DNA from: Enorma massiliensis phI | GTDB lineage: Bacteria > Actinomycetota > Coriobacteriia > Coriobacteriales > Coriobacteriaceae | Assembly (NCBI RefSeq): GCF_000311845.1 | Contig: NZ_HE978575.1 | Coordinates: 591,321-655,320 of the forward strand | Reading direction: 5' to 3' | DNA: 64,000 nt | In this document: positions 22,155-60,951 of the stretch, in pieces | How positions within the stretch are numbered: the first letter of the stretch is position 1 | Layout of the letters: the number at the start of each line of letters is the position of its first letter | The notes under the pieces: model-generated | The model's input: only the letters and a program-made list of their open reading frames with translations | Told to the model about the DNA's origin: nothing | Databases searched by the model: none | Program-made: the position numbers and the translations under genes

Positions 22155-22311
22155 GCGGATACGAGGAGTTTCATAGGCTTTTGGGCGAGATTGCGCCAAG
22201 CGGTGCGCGGTCCTTGCTCCGCGTGATCGGCTGCTGGCACATCCCGCCGCCGGCGTGCTTGCGTGCCCGCTTGCTCATGCGCCTGTGCCGGACCATCGGT
22301 ATGCCATCAAT

Positions 22312-22797: not shown

Positions 22798-22925
22798 CAA
22801 CTTTTGGGCACTTCTTGAGGGGGACGCTGAGTAGCGACTCACTGAGCACCCCTTGTTTCCTGGGCTTTTGTTCGTTCTATTGTCCGTGCTACTCAGCTTC
22901 ATGCGCTCGAAGTGCCCAAAAGTTG
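22798..22925. repeat. TIR element, copy 1
   Basis: A 128-base element with 17-bp inverted ends (CAACTTTTGGGCACTTC and complement). Inside is a second inverted pair, GCTGAGTAGC (22826) and GCTACTCAGC (22888). There is no ORF. Copies 2 and 3 are at 34498 and 44795, with a variant at 11803. The rest of the 22634-23213 spacer holds no supportable gene. Confidence 0.8.
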
Positions 22926-23213
22926 CTTTCGCCTGAGCGTGTTGTCCCAAAATCGCCCGTCAAAACCCGAGTGACCCTCGGTGGCCCTCTCTTTGCGTCC
23001 GGCAACCACGAGCCGGAGTTGGCTGCCCTCCCCTTGCGTCCTGCGAAGCGTGCTCTTCCGCTGGTGCCTCGCCCGTCGATGATGCATAATTGACATATTG
23101 TCAAATCAGGCCGTCCTGGTTGCGGGACGAAGTCGCTCGCCGCCATGGTTCCCGACGGCATAGGGCGAAATCCTGCCGCCATATCCCATGAGGCGATTGT
23201 AAGGAGTGCGGAC

Positions 23214-24760: not shown

Positions 24761-24886
24761 ATGAACCGCATAGCACACGTGCGGCGGTCGCTCTATAGCG
24801 GCCCTCGCGCCCTTCATCTTCATCCGCTTCGCCGCTTGCCCCAGCGCATCGTTGCCCGGGCGGCATGCGATGTTTGGACGAGGTGA
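24761..24886 (+). CDS. Arg-rich 41-residue upstream ORF
   Basis: ATG 24761 is preceded by AAGGA eight bases upstream and the ORF ends with TGA at 24886, overlapping the ATG 24865 start of the next gene and six bases before its alternative GTG start at 24892. The peptide has eleven Arg and no recognised motif. It may be a leader ORF that couples translation into the recJ-type gene, or it may be chance in a GC-rich sequence. Confidence 0.25.
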   Translation: MNRIAHVRRSLYSGPRALHLHPLRRLPQRIVARAACDVWTR

Positions 24887-27800
24887 TCGCTGTGGCATCG
24901 CTTACCACCACGCATCGCTGGGTCGTCGCCCACCAGGATCCGCGCCTCGCCGACGAGCTCTCCTGCGGGCTCGGTATCGCCCCGCTCGTGGCGCGCATCA
25001 TGGTCGCGCACGGCATCTCGTCGGTCGAAGAGGGCCGGCGCTTCCTCACGCCTTCTCTTGAGCGCGACTGGGCGGATCCCCTCGTTATTCCCGGCATGGC
25101 CGAGGTGGCCGACCGCGTCGAGCGCGCCATCCGGGAAGAGGAGGTCATCGCGGTCTTCGGTGATTTCGATGTCGACGGCATTACCTCGACGTGCCTGCTC
25201 ACCGAGGCGCTCCGTGCGCTCGGGGCGAAGGTTCATCCCTTCATCCCGCACCGCTTCGACGAGGGGTATGGCTTGAGCGAGGTGGCCCTTGAGCGCGTGA
25301 TCGATGCCTGCCATCCATCGCTTGTCGTGACGGTGGATAACGGCATCGCCGCGAAGAACGAGGTCGCCTTCTTGCAGGAGCGCGGCATAGACCTCGTGGT
25401 GACCGACCATCATGAGCCCTCGGACATGGTGCCCGAGGGTGTGCCGCTCACCGACCCCAAACTCGATTCCTACGGTCCCTCGCATGAGCTTGCGGGCGCC
25501 GGCGTCGCGCTCAAGCTCGTGCAGGTGCTGGGCGGCCGCTTGGGCCGGCCAGACCTGTGGCACGGCCTGCTCGAGGTGGCCGCGCTCGGAACTGTTTCTG
25601 ACATGATGACGCTCACCCCCGAGAACCGCGCGCTCGTGGCCGCGGGCATCGACCAGATGCGCAACACGACGCGCCCGGGGTATGTGGCGCTCGCCAGCAT
25701 GAGCAAGACGGACCTCTCCACGGTCACCGCCGACTCGCTCTCGTTCTCTCTCATACCGCGTCTTAACGCCGCCGGGCGCATGGCGGACCCCACGCTCGCG
25801 CTCGACTTGCTGCTCGCGCGCGATCCCATCGAGGCCGGGCGCCTCGCAGCCGAGCTCGAAGAGATCAACCAGGAACGGCGGTCCATCGAGGCAGCCCTTG
25901 CCGACGAGGCATTCGAGCGCGTTGAGAGCACCTATGCCGGCGGCCGCGTGGTGGTCGTGGGGGGAGAGGGCTGGCACGAGGGCGTGAAGGGCATCGTGGC
26001 GAGCCGTATCGTCAACCGCTACCATGTGCCGGCGCTCCTCTTCTCGATCGAGGACGGCGTTGCGCGCGGGTCTGGCCGCTCGGTGGGCACGGTCAACCTC
26101 TTCGAGGCCGTTGAGCGCTGCTCCGATTTGCTCACCCGCTTTGGCGGGCATGCGGGCGCCGTGGGCGTGACGCTTCCCGCCGACCGGCTGGACGATCTCC
26201 GCGACCGGCTCGACGCTGTGCTCTCGGAGCTCCCGTCCGAGGCCTTCGAGGACACGGGCGAGATCGCCACGACGGTGCGCCTTTCGGAGCTCGATATCGA
26301 GACGATCGAGCAAGTTTCGCTTCTCGAGCCCTTCGGCCAGGGCAACAAGGTGCCGCTCCTTGCAGCAACGGGTGTGACCATGGCCGATCGCTTCTGCGTG
26401 GGAAAAACCGGCGACCATATGCGCTTCACGGCGACAGATGGTGCTGCGAGCGTGGCGGCGATCATGTTCCGCGTCCCCGAGATCGATACCGTGTGCGCCT
26501 GCGATTCGGTGGTCGACCTCGTGTTCGAGGCGGTTGCCGAGCATTGGCAGGGTCGGGTGAAGCCCAAGCTCATGGTGAAGGATATTCTCTGCCACGCGCC
26601 GGGCGATGCCGATGCACGGGCCCAGGCGAGCACGGATCCAGCCCGCGATTCTTCGTCGGAGGCAACGCCGAAGAAGGAACCATCCGGCATGGAGGCCTCT
26701 ACCGCCCGGCAAGGCGCCGCGCGCCGCGCCCTTCTTGCACAGCTGCCCTATGATGAGCTCACGCGCTCGCTCCTGCACGCCTTTATCGGGGCCTCTGCGC
26801 CGCACCGCGCCCAGAGCGATGCGCTTGAGGCGCTCGGGCAAGGCATGAACACGCTCGCTGTCATGGGCACGGGACGGGGGAAGTCGCTCATCTTCCAGGT
26901 GCATGCCGTCCGCGAGGCGGTGGTCAACCGCCGTGCAAGCGTGCTCGTGTACCCGCTTCGCGCGCTCGTGGCCGATCAAGCCTTCCACCTCATCGCAGCC
27001 TGCACCGCCCTCGGCGTTCGCGCGGCGGTGCTCACGGGAGAGTCGCTCCAGCCCGCGCGCGACCGAGCGTTCGCCGAGCTCGCGGCTGGATCGCTCGACA
27101 TCGTGCTCACCACGCCGGAGTTTCTCGCCATCCACGCGGAGCGTTTCGCCCAGTCTGGGCGCGTGGGCTTCGTCGTGGTGGACGAAGCGCATCATGCCGC
27201 CCGGGCTAGGTCGGGCGAGCGGAGCGTATACCTTGAGCTTCCGCATGTGCTCGAGCGTCTGGGCAGCCCGACGGTCCTTGCCGTGACCGCGACGGCCGAT
27301 GCTCGCGCAGCGGACGAGATTTGCCGGCTTTTTGATACCAGTCGTGTGGTCGTTGATAAGACCATCCGTGAGAACCTCGAGCTCGAGGACGACCGCGACC
27401 TCTCGGCCCGCGAGAACCGCCTCGTTTCCATCGTGGCGGCGGGGGAGAAGACCGTGGTCTATGTCAACTCGCGTGACCAAGCGGCCCAGCTCGCGCGCAC
27501 GCTTCGCAAACGCGTGCCCGAGCTCGCCCATGCCATCGCGTTCTACCATGCGGGCCTCTCGCGCGAGGACCGCACCCGCATCGAGGAGGCATTCCGCGCC
27601 GGCACGCTTGAGTGCATCGTGTCTACCTCGGCGTTCGGCGAGGGCGTGAACCTGCCCGACATCCGGCACGTGGTGCTCTACCACATGCCGTTCTCCGCTA
27701 CCGAGTTCAACCAGATGAGCGGCCGCGCAGGCCGTGACGGCGAGCCGGCTACCGTGCACCTGCTGTATTCCGCGCGCGACGCGCGCATCAACGAGCGCAT

Positions 27801-28209
27801 GCTCGATGCCGCGGCGCCCGAGCGCGAGGAGCTCGTGACCATCTACCGAGCGCTTCAGACCATGTGGCGGTCGCATCGCGGAAAGACGGGCGAGGAGAGC
27901 TTCTCGGCCACAGACCTCGACATCTCGAGCATGTGCCTCGCCATCGACGCGCGCACCCCGGTTGATGAGCGGGCCGTCAAGAGCGGCATCGCAATTTTCG
28001 AGGAGCTGGGTTTCGCCCGAGTCGAGGGCTTCGACGACGCGCGCCGCATCGAGATGAGCGAGAGGCCCGGGCACATGTCGCTCACGAGCTCGACGCGATA
28101 TCTCGAGGGGCTCCGCACGCGTCTCGCGTTTACAACATTCCGCGGCTGGGCGCTCGATGCCCCGGCTCATGATATGCTTGCACGAGTGAACCGTCCTATC
28201 ACGCCATAG
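24865..28209 (+). CDS. recJ: RecJ single-strand exonuclease fused to a RecQ-like helicase
   Basis: A 1114-residue two-part DNA repair enzyme. Residues ~1-580 are RecJ: DHH motifs DFDVDG (100-105), VVTVDNGIA, VVTDHHEP (D181-H183), then DHHA1 with RLNAAGRMADP, GWHEGVKGIVASR and RFGGHAGAVG, and an OB-type domain. Residues ~625-1000 are a superfamily 2 helicase of RecQ type: Walker A MGTGRGKS (~666), DEAHH (773-777), AVTATADARAADEICRLF, and motif VI MSGRAGRDGEP. Bacterial RecJ is usually ~570-800 residues and works with a separate RecQ; here 5'-3' nuclease and unwinding are in one chain. The start is ATG 24865 or GTG 24892. Confidence 0.93.
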   Translation: MRCLDEVIAVASLTTTHRWVVAHQDPRLADELSCGLGIAPLVARIMVAHGISSVEEGRRFLTPSLERDWADPLVIPGMAEVADRVERAIREEEVIAVFGDFDVDGITSTCLLTEALRALGAKVHPFIPHRFDEGYGLSEVALERVIDACHPSLVVTVDNGIAAKNEVAFLQERGIDLVVTDHHEPSDMVPEGVPLTDPKLDSYGPSHELAGAGVALKLVQVLGGRLGRPDLWHGLLEVAALGTVSDMMTLTPENRALVAAGIDQMRNTTRPGYVALASMSKTDLSTVTADSLSFSLIPRLNAAGRMADPTLALDLLLARDPIEAGRLAAELEEINQERRSIEAALADEAFERVESTYAGGRVVVVGGEGWHEGVKGIVASRIVNRYHVPALLFSIEDGVARGSGRSVGTVNLFEAVERCSDLLTRFGGHAGAVGVTLPADRLDDLRDRLDAVLSELPSEAFEDTGEIATTVRLSELDIETIEQVSLLEPFGQGNKVPLLAATGVTMADRFCVGKTGDHMRFTATDGAASVAAIMFRVPEIDTVCACDSVVDLVFEAVAEHWQGRVKPKLMVKDILCHAPGDADARAQASTDPARDSSSEATPKKEPSGMEASTARQGAARRALLAQLPYDELTRSLLHAFIGASAPHRAQSDALEALGQGMNTLAVMGTGRGKSLIFQVHAVREAVVNRRASVLVYPLRALVADQAFHLIAACTALGVRAAVLTGESLQPARDRAFAELAAGSLDIVLTTPEFLAIHAERFAQSGRVGFVVVDEAHHAARARSGERSVYLELPHVLERLGSPTVLAVTATADARAADEICRLFDTSRVVVDKTIRENLELEDDRDLSARENRLVSIVAAGEKTVVYVNSRDQAAQLARTLRKRVPELAHAIAFYHAGLSREDRTRIEEAFRAGTLECIVSTSAFGEGVNLPDIRHVVLYHMPFSATEFNQMSGRAGRDGEPATVHLLYSARDARINERMLDAAAPEREELVTIYRALQTMWRSHRGKTGEESFSATDLDISSMCLAIDARTPVDERAVKSGIAIFEELGFARVEGFDDARRIEMSERPGHMSLTSSTRYLEGLRTRLAFTTFRGWALDAPAHDMLARVNRPITP

Positions 28210-28235: not shown

Positions 28236-30590
28236 ATGGATGCTGCAACCCGCGCGGCGCACGACGCGTCGCTCACATCGTTCTCGCAGATGGTGCACTA
28301 CACCAAGGCGGACGACCTTCCGCAGGAGATCTGTGCCGACAACTACGACCGCTTAGCGCAGCTCTCCAGCAAGTACATGAGCCCCGAGGATTGCGCGAAG
28401 GTCGAGCACGCATACTGCTTCGCTGCGGAGAAGCATTCTGCCCAGAAGCGTCGCTCGGGAGAGCTCTATATCAACCATCCCGTTGAGGTCGCCATCATTC
28501 TGGCCGAGCTCAACATGGATTGCGACGTGGTCTGTGCGGCGCTCCTGCATGACACGGTCGAGGACACCGAGGTCTCGCTCGCCGACGTGACGAGCCTGTT
28601 CGGCGAGACGGTTGCCGGGCTCGTGGACGGCGTGACGAAGCTCACCAACATCGAGGTGAGCAGCATGGACGAGAAGCAGGCGCTCAACCTCCGCAAGATG
28701 TTCCTCGCCATGTCGCGCGACATCCGCGTCATCATCGTGAAGCTCGCCGACCGCCTGCACAACATGCGCACGCTTGCGGCGCTGCGCGAGGACCGCAGGC
28801 TCTTCAAGGCGCGCGAGACGATGGACGTGTATGCGCCGCTCGCCGACCGCCTGGGCATGAGCTCCATCAAGTGGGAGCTCGAGGACCTCTCCTTCTTCTA
28901 CCTCGAGCCCGAGGCGTATCAGCGTATCGCGCGCATGGTGGCCGAGAGCCGCGAGGTGCGCGAGCGCTACCTGGCGGAGACCATCAAGACGCTCACGGAC
29001 GAGCTCAAGCGCGTGGGGCTCCAGGGCTTCCAGATCAACGGGCGCTCCAAGCACTACTGGTCCATCTACCAGAAGATGAAGCGCAAGGGCAAGGAGTTCA
29101 GCGAGATCTACGACCTCGTGGCGCTGCGCGTGATCTGCCAGTCGGTGGGCGATTGCTACTCTGCGCTCGGTGCGGTCCACTCGCTCTGGCACCCCATGCC
29201 GGGGCGCTTCAAGGACTACATCGCCATGCCCAAGCTCAATAACTACCAGAGCCTGCATACGACGGTCATCGGCCCCACGGCGCGCCCGCTCGAGATCCAG
29301 ATCCGCACGTTCGAGATGCATGAGCAGGCGGAGTACGGCATCGCGGCGCACTGGCTCTACAAGAAGTCGGGCGGCTCGAGCGCGGCGAAGACGGCGGAGG
29401 CCCAGCGCCTGGACGACCAGATCAACATGCTCAAGCATTCGCTCGATTGGGCTGCTTCCGACGAGATCGAAGATCCCAAGGAGTTCTTGGATACCCTCAA
29501 GGTCGATCTTTTCGACCAGGAGATTTACGTCTTCACGCCCAAGGGCGACGTCATGAGCCTACGTGCCGGGGCAACCCCGCTCGATTTTGCCTACTCCGTT
29601 CACACCGAGGTAGGCAATCATTGCGTGGGTGCCAAGGTGAATGGCGTGGTGACGCCGCTCGCCCACGAGCTCGTCATGGGCGATCGGGTGGAGATCCTCA
29701 CCAACAAGAACGCGAAGCCTTCGCGCGACTGGCTGAACATCGTGAAGACGCCCTCGGCGCGTTCGAAGATCAAGCGTTACTTCACCGCCGTGACCAAAGA
29801 CGACGATGCTGCGGCCGGCCGCGACATCCTTTCCAAGGAGCTTCGCAAGCGCGGTTACGGCATCTCTACGGCCCGCTCTACCCGGGCGCTCCATACCGTG
29901 TGCGAGCAGCTCAACTATCGCCAGCTCGAAGACCTGTTTGCCGCCATCGGCTCGGGCAAGGTGGCCTGTCGCATGGTGGGGAACCGCGTGGAGCAGATTC
30001 TCGATCCCAAGCCGGAGGCCCCCGCAAAGACCGAAGCGGAGCAGCAGGCGGCGGCGCAGCCCGCGCGCGGTTCGAACCGCCGGCCGCGCGGCCCCAGGCG
30101 CGTTAGCTCGGGCGTCATCGTGAAGGGCGAATCGAGCGACGGCCTCCTCGTGCGCCTGGCCCATTGCTGCAACCCTGTGGCGGGCGACGACATCGTGGGC
30201 TTCATCACCCGCGGTCGCGGCGTCTCGGTGCACCGGGCGAATTGCCCCAACGTGAAGGGGCTCATGGAGCACCCGGAGCGCATGATCGAAGTTGGCTGGG
30301 ATACCCAGGCGGACGCGCTCTTCCAGGTGGAGATCGTGGTCGAGTGCCTCGACCGCATGGGGCTCTTGAAGGACGTGACGATCGCGATCGGCGATGCGGG
30401 GGCGAATATCCTTTCGGCGAGCACCTCGACTTCGCGCGATGGCATGGCGGTGCTGCGTTTCTTGGTCGAGATTTCCGATGCGAGCGGCCTTGATCCGTTG
30501 CTCGCGGCGATCAGCCAGGTCGAAAGCGTCTACGATGCGCGCCGTCTCATGCCTGGCGAGGGCGGCGCCACCATGAAACGCAGGAGCTGA
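28236..30590 (+). CDS. Bifunctional (p)ppGpp synthase/hydrolase RelA/SpoT
   Basis: A 784-residue stringent-response enzyme. The hydrolase HD domain is intact (HPVEVAIILAELNMDCDVVCAALLHDTVEDTE in outline; the HD dyad is HDTVEDTE), followed by the synthetase domain (QINGRSKHYWSIYQKMKRKGKEFSEIYDLVALRVI in outline, and FKDYIAMPKLNNYQSLHTTVIGP). Next come a TGS domain (VFTPKGDVMSLRAGATPLDFAY) and, after a low-complexity linker (~600-630), a zinc-finger/RIS segment (LAHCCNPVAGDDIVGFITRGRGVSVHR) and a C-terminal ACT domain. With both catalytic halves present it should make and degrade (p)ppGpp. It follows recJ directly, as in many Gram-positives. Confidence 0.96.
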   Translation: MDAATRAAHDASLTSFSQMVHYTKADDLPQEICADNYDRLAQLSSKYMSPEDCAKVEHAYCFAAEKHSAQKRRSGELYINHPVEVAIILAELNMDCDVVCAALLHDTVEDTEVSLADVTSLFGETVAGLVDGVTKLTNIEVSSMDEKQALNLRKMFLAMSRDIRVIIVKLADRLHNMRTLAALREDRRLFKARETMDVYAPLADRLGMSSIKWELEDLSFFYLEPEAYQRIARMVAESREVRERYLAETIKTLTDELKRVGLQGFQINGRSKHYWSIYQKMKRKGKEFSEIYDLVALRVICQSVGDCYSALGAVHSLWHPMPGRFKDYIAMPKLNNYQSLHTTVIGPTARPLEIQIRTFEMHEQAEYGIAAHWLYKKSGGSSAAKTAEAQRLDDQINMLKHSLDWAASDEIEDPKEFLDTLKVDLFDQEIYVFTPKGDVMSLRAGATPLDFAYSVHTEVGNHCVGAKVNGVVTPLAHELVMGDRVEILTNKNAKPSRDWLNIVKTPSARSKIKRYFTAVTKDDDAAAGRDILSKELRKRGYGISTARSTRALHTVCEQLNYRQLEDLFAAIGSGKVACRMVGNRVEQILDPKPEAPAKTEAEQQAAAQPARGSNRRPRGPRRVSSGVIVKGESSDGLLVRLAHCCNPVAGDDIVGFITRGRGVSVHRANCPNVKGLMEHPERMIEVGWDTQADALFQVEIVVECLDRMGLLKDVTIAIGDAGANILSASTSTSRDGMAVLRFLVEISDASGLDPLLAAISQVESVYDARRLMPGEGGATMKRRS

Positions 30591-30602: not shown

Positions 30603-30900
30603 GAGCCGTACGGGCTTGGTCGGATGCCGGCCCAGCGGTGGGCGCTTGGATGAGCATCCGCGCCGGGCGGGATTCGGACATGGCCGGCGTTCTCGGGCGG
30701 GATTTGGACACGCGTGTACGTTTCCGGGCGACATCCGGACACGTCGGGCATTCTCGGGCCGTTTTTCGCCATAATTGAGGCTCTGAGCGTACCGATTCCG
30801 CCCGAGAACGCGGTGATTGTCCAAAAGCTGCCCGAGAACGCGACGGCTGTCCGGAAGTGGCCCAAGAACGCGGCGAGCGTCCGATTCTTGCCCGAGAACT
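30603..30900. repeat. Palindromic array with 30-bp period (PAL30, locus 2)
   Basis: Right arm: CCCGAGAACG starts at 30801, 30831, 30861 and 30891, exactly every 30 bases, with variable sequence between and a GTCC or similar block in each unit. Left arm: the complementary GTTCTCGGGC-like block at about 30659, 30689, 30720 and 30750, each followed by a TYSGGACA block. Older, decayed units extend left to about 30605. The centre (30760-30790) reads GTTTTTCGCCATAATTGAGG; the TTTCGCC core is shared with locus 1. It fills the spacer between relA and the hydrolase gene. Confidence 0.85.
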
Positions 30901-30934: not shown

Positions 30935-31606
30935 ATGCACCTGGAATGCGTGGTCAATGGACCCATCGAAACGAATACGTATTTTGTTGTCGCGGGCGAC
31001 GAGGCTCTCGTGATCGACCCCGCCTGGGAGGGCGAGAAGCTGGCGCGCGATTTTGCGGAACGTCACGAAGGCGTCCGCATCGCGGGCATCGTGTGCACCC
31101 ATGGACATGCCGACCATGTGGGCGGAGTCGCGGGTATGCGTCGCGTGCTGGGTGGCGAATGCCCCTTCATGCTCCCTGCCGACGACGTGGATATGGTGGC
31201 CGAGAGCATTGAGCGCCAGCGCGCGTGGGGCATTGAGACGGAACATCCTGGCGTTCCGACCCGGTTACTGCATGAGGGCGATACGGTCGCGGTCGGCGAC
31301 GTCGCGTTCACGGTCATCGCGACGCCCGGCCATACGCCTGGCGGTATCGTGCTCTATGCGGAGCATCCCGGCGCAACGGAGGACGACGAGCGGGGAGTGG
31401 GCGCCCCTATAGCATTCGTGGGCGATACGCTCTTTCCGGGGAGCCATGGCCGCACCGATCTTGCCGGTGGAAGCGAAGAGACCATCCTTGCTTCCCTTGC
31501 CAAGATGGCGCGCATGCTCCCGCCCGAAACGACCTGCTTCATCGGCCACGGCCCGTCGACCACCATCGCCCGCGAGCTCGCAGTGAATCCATTCATGCAG
31601 GGATAG
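30935..31606 (+). CDS. Metallo-beta-lactamase-fold hydrolase (glyoxalase II-like)
   Basis: A 223-residue metal-dependent hydrolase of the YcbL/glyoxalase II-like group. The metal motif is THGHADHVGG (HXHXDH), with further ligands in ATPGHTPGG, FVGDTLFPGSHGRTDLAGG and CFIGHGPSTTI. It probably hydrolyses a thioester such as S-lactoylglutathione-like compounds; the substrate is not defined. ATG 30935 has GGAG ten bases upstream and a typical N-terminus (MHLECVVNGPIETNTYFVV); the longer in-frame start at 30857 runs into the repeat array and is rejected. The position after relA is common in Gram-positive genomes. Confidence 0.9.
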   Translation: MHLECVVNGPIETNTYFVVAGDEALVIDPAWEGEKLARDFAERHEGVRIAGIVCTHGHADHVGGVAGMRRVLGGECPFMLPADDVDMVAESIERQRAWGIETEHPGVPTRLLHEGDTVAVGDVAFTVIATPGHTPGGIVLYAEHPGATEDDERGVGAPIAFVGDTLFPGSHGRTDLAGGSEETILASLAKMARMLPPETTCFIGHGPSTTIARELAVNPFMQG

Positions 31607-34393: not shown

Positions 34394-34497
34394 CGCCTGG
34401 TTCCCTTGGCACGGGGGGTTCTGCATGGTTTTGGGCGGCTCGGAGCTCTCATCCAGGCGTTGTGCGCGCTTTTCTCAAGCTATGTTTGCCCTCGTTG

Positions 34498-38300: not shown

Positions 38301-38322
38301 TATCGGCGTGCCCGCTTGGTAA

Positions 38323-38353
38323 TGAGACAGTTGTGCCGGGTCAAACTGTCTCA
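38323..38353. repeat. PAL31 palindrome
   Basis: A 31-base palindrome: TGAGACAGTT, GTGCCGGGTCA, AACTGTCTCA (10-bp arms). The first half is identical to the copy at 44275 and is inverted at 45905. Confidence 0.85.
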
Positions 38354-38412
38354 CCTGCCGATGTGCAGATTGTTTCCATTCAGCACCCGCAACGTCCCGT
38401 TTTGTGGATGAA

Positions 38413-44254: not shown

Positions 44255-44274
44255 CGCCACGGGGCATGCAGGCG

Positions 44275-44303
44275 TGACAGTTGTGCCGGGTCAAACTGTC
44301 TCA
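44275..44303. repeat. PAL31 palindrome
   Basis: TGACAGTTGTGCCGGGTC then AAACTGTCTCA; the core is identical to the copy at 38323 except that the first TGAGACAG is shortened. It directly follows hisF. Confidence 0.8.
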
Positions 44304-44307
44304 TTTT

Positions 44308-45904: not shown

Positions 45905-45935
45905 TGAGACAGTTTCTCCTGGCACAACTGTCTCA
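45905..45935. repeat. PAL31 palindrome (inverted orientation)
   Basis: TGAGACAGTT, TCTCCTGGCAC, AACTGTCTCA. Read on the other strand it matches the TGAGACAGTTGTGCC core of the copies at 38323 and 44275. It lies between convergent genes. Confidence 0.85.
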
Positions 45936-45937
45936 TG

Positions 45938-60661: not shown

Positions 60662-60871
60662 GGGCGCCCGGGCCTCTTCTTCGCTAGTCCTCGGCCTTCG
60701 GCCTGAGGAATCGCTCAGAAGAGGCCCGGGCGCCCTTGCGTTACGGGCATAGATGCGGGCTGGGACCGGGCGGTGAGGCGCCCGGGGTCGATGCTGCATG
60801 CCCGTCCCAGGCCTGCGGAATCGCTCAGAAGAGGCCCGGGCGCCCTTGCGTTGCGGGCATAGATGCGGGCG
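60662..60871. repeat. HP1 hairpin, copy D, with duplicated right half
   Basis: Hairpin 60662-60735: outer stem GGGCGCCCGGGCCTCTTCT with complement, internal CGCTAGTCCTCG opposite GAGGAATCGCTCAG, short inner stem GGCC-TTC-GGCC. The segment 60700-60761 (right half plus flank) is repeated at 60810-60871 with only a few differences, so two alternative right arms exist. It lies between the IIB gene and larC. Confidence 0.85.
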
Positions 60872-60951
60872 GGGGCGGAGCGGGCGGTTGTCTTGGAGTT
60901 AGGTCTAGGTGATAAGGTGGCCGATGTTTGGCCGCGTGAAAAAGGAGAGAC

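Follow-up and report, generated by a model that had tools for sequence, protein, structure and literature searches.

In the genome of the gut-type actinobacterium Enorma massiliensis phI, the spacer that separates a relA/spoT gene from an MBL-fold hydrolase gene contains an array of eight 22-bp cores that face away from a 16-bp dyad. From sequence comparison, we propose that this array and others like it form a lineage-restricted extragenic repeat, dispersed over the genome, in which the 22-bp core would be the working part and would be recognized by a protein, and we give this interpretation a probability of about one half.

Geometry of the arrays in the window and across the genome

The window is a stretch of 64,000 nucleotides (contig C2:591321-655320 of the source genome, G000). 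The main array occupies positions 30659-30899, with four minus-strand cores in the left arm and four plus-strand cores in the right arm. From the outside inwards, the left arm consists of core 4 (TGTCCGAATCCCGCCCGGCGCG, 30659-30680, profile score 16-18 bits), core 3 (TGTCCAAATCCCGCCCGAGAAC, 30689-30710, 31-32 bits), core 2 (TGTCCGGATGTCGCCCGGAAAC, 30720-30741, 30-31 bits), which follows a 31-bp step, and core 1 (TGGCGAAAAACGGCCCGAGAAT, 30750-30771, 15.5-16.8 bits), which belongs to a GGCG type enriched at the innermost rank. The dyad between the head-to-head cores lies at 30772-30787, where the family consensus is close to CTCAGAGG/CCTCTGAG. The right arm continues outwards with core 1 (CGTACCGATTCCGCCCGAGAAC, 30788-30809, 21 bits), core 2 (TGTCCAAAAGCTGCCCGAGAAC, 30818-30839, 28 bits), core 3 (TGTCCGGAAGTGGCCCAAGAAC, 30848-30869, 22-23 bits) and core 4 (CGTCCGATTCTTGCCCGAGAAC, 30878-30899, 27 bits). 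The original prediction had placed the array at 30603-30900; the array is indeed there, while positions 30603-30658 contain nothing array-like. Its description of the arms holds, in that the right-arm boxes follow a 30-bp period (starting at 30800, 30830, 30860 and 30890, each one base earlier than first given) and the left arm is their reverse complement, with steps of 30, 31 and 30 bp.

Upstream of the array is the RelA/SpoT family protein (784 aa, 28236-30590, plus strand; TIGR00691, 788 bits), and downstream is the MBL-fold hydrolase (30936-31606, plus strand), which is GloB-like with metallo-beta-lactamase core matches and whose ATG start we infer at 30936. Further upstream, a 1114-aa open reading frame (24865-28209) matches RecJ exonuclease (residues 39-574) and a RecQ-type helicase (residues 634-1004), an apparent fusion. 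A second array in the window, previously described at 59-410, exists and follows the same plan apart from one irregular 47-bp step; its actual span is 71-267, with left-arm cores at 71, 101, 148 and 178, a dyad at ∼200-215, and right-arm cores at 216 and 246. Using a core profile trained without both window arrays, we count 15 cores above 15 bits in the window, whereas 40 dinucleotide shuffles gave 0.18 on average and never more than 1. Two isolated cores that also exceed 15 bits, at 22177-22198 and 22943-22964, belong to no array.

The two loci first recognized turned out to be an undercount. A genome-wide census, combining a sequence profile of 20 centres with chaining of core matches, finds 33 centred arrays and two half arrays in the 2.28 Mb of G000, on contigs C1 and C2. 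All 35 are intergenic, and the flanking genes, oriented by simple codon-usage gene calls, are tandem at 21, convergent at nine and divergent at five. Units on the same strand follow one another at exactly 30 bp in 122 of the 144 steps, and 30 of 32 arrays have a core-to-core distance of 38 bp over the centre, so that both arms can be written as n repeats of an 8-bp spacer plus a 22-bp core (TGTCCGAATNTCGCCCGANAAC) extending from one dyad. The core consensus reads TGTCCGRAWNYCGCCCGRNAAC, with positions up to 98-100% conserved (GCCC, and GTCC at rank 2), whereas similarity between the spacers of different arrays is close to that expected by chance; the exceptions are their GC start and the conserved half of the centre at rank 1 (consensus near CCTCTGAG).

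Cores fall into two discrete types, GTCC and GGCG, and core positions 2 and 4 are strongly linked. The GGCG type is concentrated at rank 1 (18/62, versus 6/132 elsewhere), and it accounts for the TTTCGCC that had been taken for a common centre, which is a core variant with GGCG in place of GTCC. Cores starting with CGTCC are mostly at rank 1, and those starting with TGTCC mostly at rank 2. A polarity rule for the centre along the chromosome or with orientation, suspected by eye, was not upheld, and the GC skew of the sampled regions was too noisy.

Pairing tests and comparison with known repeats

A 246-nt RNA of the array folds at -127.7 kcal/mol (z = -4.96), as would be expected of any inverted repeat. 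Across the G000 arrays, mirror cores are no more identical than in shuffles (L1-R1, 15.4 vs. 15.6; L2-R2, 15.9 vs. 15.9), and the same is true of mirror spacers. Mirror positions are complementary to the degree that column composition predicts, and the covariation term of RNAalifold contributes only -0.46 of -21.7 kcal/mol. With no covariation at mirror positions, selected pairing of RNA or DNA is not supported, and pairing between the arms is rejected as the selected feature. The best internal pairing of the core, TNTCG-CC-CGANA, is a broken stem of 5 bp closed by a 2-nt loop, and covariation is absent from its potential pairs (p = 0.21-1.0), so that the internal palindrome is likewise rejected. 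Thus, the ladder-like hairpin of the original prediction can be folded on paper but finds no compensatory support. The class of intrinsic terminators does not fit either, since the array region contains one terminator-like site, within shuffle range (shuffle mean 0.5), and arrays also lie between divergent genes.

Dispersed repeats in bacteria are usually hairpin-forming REPs or MITEs. Rfam at the gathering threshold gives no match in the window, the exact core pattern has no match in IMG/VR or in GTDB r220 (a scan that possibly did not include the source genome), and we found nothing relevant in the literature on repeats of Coriobacteria, Collinsella or Olsenella; the element therefore remains unrecognized, as the first reading of the sequence had it. 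Like the arrays, REP and BIME elements with a RAYT are short, species-specific palindromic extragenic repeats that are often clustered (PMC2817692, PMC3116915), and the arrays share with them an extragenic, multi-copy and species-restricted distribution. BIMEs alternate in orientation and keep their stem pairing (PMC2817692, PMC3116915), whereas the array cores have neither a paired stem nor the GTAG tag, follow each other head-to-tail at a constant 30-bp period in each arm, and do not show stem pairing in the repeat unit kept by compensatory change. None of the three RAYTs in G000 has a core within 1.5 kb, each being flanked by other repeats, and no full array element lies beside the RAYTs of ten related genomes. 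Half-site matches beside the RAYTs of G001 and G079 are unrelated, falling in gpmI coding sequence where checked. An association with RAYTs is therefore rejected for G000, and none is seen in the relatives.

Other repeats accompany the arrays in this genome. A palindromic repeat, ATGAGACAGTTGTGCCGGGTCAAACTGTCTCAT, occurs in the window at 38321-38358, 44268-44305 and 45905-45936; its copies also flank a RAYT gene (264 aa, C1:1419510) and look like the cognate REPs of that RAYT, while the two other G000 RAYTs have flanking repeats of their own. A further palindromic family, whose arms read CAACTTTTGGGCACTT...GAGTAGC, is found at 22798-22925 and also at 34494 and 44791, and positions 60662-60883 contain two 74-bp direct repeats (92% identical) together with inverted arms around GGGCGCCCGGGCCTCTTCT.

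CGTC-tagged REPs, including Neisseria dRS3, resemble the arrays in their start (CGTC at rank 1, TGTC in outer cores), their head-to-head dimers and the lack of a dedicated transposase (PMC3733652). These REPs form an 8-9 bp stem with a 4-5 nt loop, in contrast to the core, which forms at most the broken stem described above; Actinobacteria go unmentioned in that work (PMC3733652). The BrickBuilt MITE of P. gingivalis also has intergenic copies (∼20) and a tandem unit with conserved and variable sites, in this case of 23 nt and differing in number between strains (PMC4596501), and the arrays have similar internal tandem units that vary in number. BrickBuilt is bounded by 12-nt terminal inverted repeats (PMC4596501), whereas in the arrays a pair of arms face each other across a constant dyad. 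No terminal inverted repeats or target-site duplications were found at the arrays, where the orthologous spacers are too diverged to place the ends. Overall, the arrays lack defining features of REP/BIME elements, CGTC-REPs, Rfam families and terminators, and are best filed as a new, lineage-restricted form of extragenic palindromic repeat.

Weak matches also led to an extragenic hairpin family in nine genomes of one genus of the Thermophilibacter/Olsenella group (Atopobiaceae), with the layout CGGGC-N6-CGGAC-N18-GTCCG-N6-GCCCG. These hairpins have the same box spacing as the G000 arrays and the same 18-bp GGAC-to-GTCC centre, which is exact in nearly all copies although 16-20 bp was allowed. 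They differ in that they are single (1+1) units or tandem hairpins, the outer AAC box is not common to both, and cores at the 30-bp outer positions are practically absent (1/104 positions above threshold). Their arms do covary, with 0/2000 shuffles reaching the observed value. Because these copies are mutual paralogs, and because a fixed-length model served to find them in the first place, the geometry they have in common with the arrays amounts to roughly one coincidence. Homology with the arrays is plausible, not proven; should the relationship be real, a hairpin may have been the working form of the ancestral element.

Array dynamics and distribution among relatives

Within each arm, adjacent units resemble each other more than shuffled units do (for L2-L3, p = 0.0005 for the spacer and p = 0.005 for the core), mainly at ranks 2-3; spacers at rank 1 do not. 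Identical tandem units occur in the arrays at C2:148k and C1:1280k, and at valS a single, exact 30-bp unit separates the G000 array from that of G079. Together, these observations show that the arms change by whole units, through duplication and deletion in each arm independently, with a centre that stays constant. At strong positions, outermost cores exceed interior ones by an average of 0.70 mismatches (n = 33, p = 0.002), as had been anticipated. The growth from the centre that the original prediction drew from this decay is only partly upheld: outer units are more degenerate and similar or identical neighbours occupy ranks 2-4, not the ends, but the centre (rank 1) takes no part in duplication. 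Symmetric growth of the two arms is ruled out, as their lengths are uncorrelated (rho = 0.18, p = 0.34). Larger rearrangements are also seen. At C1:705.9-709.1 kb of G000 (L118, 3450-6620), the right half of an array and ∼90 bp downstream are duplicated as direct repeats on either side of a 2.9-kb insert, which codes for a 621-aa ABC transporter/permease and for a small protein of 127 aa.

Among 397 genomes of the order, compared with one genome per species, only G000, G001 and G079 hold arrays, and there are none in the 99%-complete congeners G002 and G004. Congeners at ∼80% identity keep the flanking genes, and the syntenic spacers examined in them have no arrays. For the spacer of the main array, seven relatives keep both genes and none has an array; one weak core match at this locus in G001 appears to fall beyond the spacer. 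The same spacer of several relatives (L258-L264) contains unrelated palindromic repeats, as if it were a site that such elements prefer.

The few copies outside G000 lie in segments unusually similar to it. A 1+1 remnant on contig C18 of G001 has flanks 97% identical to G000, and the left flank of the C11 copy is 98.8% identical. In the latter, the array and the adjacent transporter gene are truncated together by a deletion that fuses the inside of the gene to the right arm of the array (L100, ∼1478). The valS copy of G079 is 91% identical to G000 over 3 kb, compared to ∼74% typically. These copies were thus probably transferred, apparently as parts of whole segments. The C2:491k locus is a 1+1 remnant in G001 and is 187 bp longer in G000, the additional sequence being bounded by GCGCCGGG/GTGCCGGG.

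Proposed protein recognition and alternative explanations

Conserved and oriented cores, rigid spacing, free spacers and the lack of covariation favour recognition by a protein over structure, and oriented, predicted protein-binding sites fit the arrays best. The repeated protein binding offered in the original prediction gains support from these features, and our confidence in it stays moderate because the protein itself is missing from the surveys of neighbours and RAYTs: the 115 neighbouring proteins are a housekeeping mixture with no family enriched, and an association with a gene family was dropped. Thirty bp is also a non-integral number of B-DNA turns, which counts against this interpretation. 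In the proposed mechanism, the founding palindrome (1+1) would be a head-to-head core pair 16 bp apart that may have spread as a REP/MITE-like non-autonomous element, its arms then growing by unit duplication as further cores were added to each arm in the same orientation at 30-bp steps. A DNA-binding protein would read the core as duplex DNA and occupy adjacent sites from the dyad outwards, and the cores would be kept alike by selection on binding, not by recent copying. Decay is severe in some of the cores, and a share of the arrays could therefore lack a function.

Alternatively, the arrays could be a passive repeat, a miniature mobile element whose internal minisatellite expanded in one lineage and is now decaying with no host function, comparable to the BrickBuilt MITEs of Porphyromonas gingivalis. 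Unit duplications and losses, outer-unit decay, lineage restriction with absence in congeners, and the lack of a site preference by gene type all agree with this explanation, which we nevertheless hold to be rather unlikely. Cores and spacing are kept while spacers are randomized between arrays, which is hard to reach by neutral decay from one source, as such decay would lose both alike, and the expected inverted ends, target-site duplication and transposase were not found. A role for the arms as a long ladder hairpin or cruciform, acting in RNA as a terminator, stabilizer or source of small RNA, or at the DNA level, appears improbable. The stable predicted fold, the conserved central palindrome, the covarying arms of the possible Atopobiaceae relatives and a tendency of tandem-gene arrays to lie nearer the upstream stop (15/21, p = 0.065) would suit it, while the unequal arm lengths, the missing covariation between arms and inside cores, and a lone terminator-like match at chance frequency do not.

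Tn7 and Tn402-like elements carry iterated subterminal transposase-binding sites, and the 22-bp iterated inverted sites could by analogy be remnants of transposon ends that fused after loss of their cargo. The ABC-transporter insert flanked by one array's right arm and downstream DNA recalls such cargo, yet it lies between direct repeats, not inverted ends, and is the sole case; the centre is exactly 16 bp, with cargo absent, at nearly every locus, and no transposase family adjoins the arrays. We regard this origin as very improbable.

Returning to recognition by a protein, the candidate benefits may include chromosome organization or transcript-end insulation, as opposed to selfish spread. 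A bolder version, in which a lineage-specific protein would nucleate at the 16-bp dyad and polymerize outwards in both directions on the head-to-tail 30-bp sites, making ∼33 chromosomal stations of a nucleoid-organizing system with no described counterpart, is a long shot. Exact gains and losses of units could serve as a marker for strain typing. Rigidly spaced, oriented sites with no base-pair covariation, at dozens of loci in one lineage and nearly absent elsewhere, point to a protein that reads them, and finding this protein would help reveal how the arrays arise and whether a repeat family can be recruited into chromosome organization.
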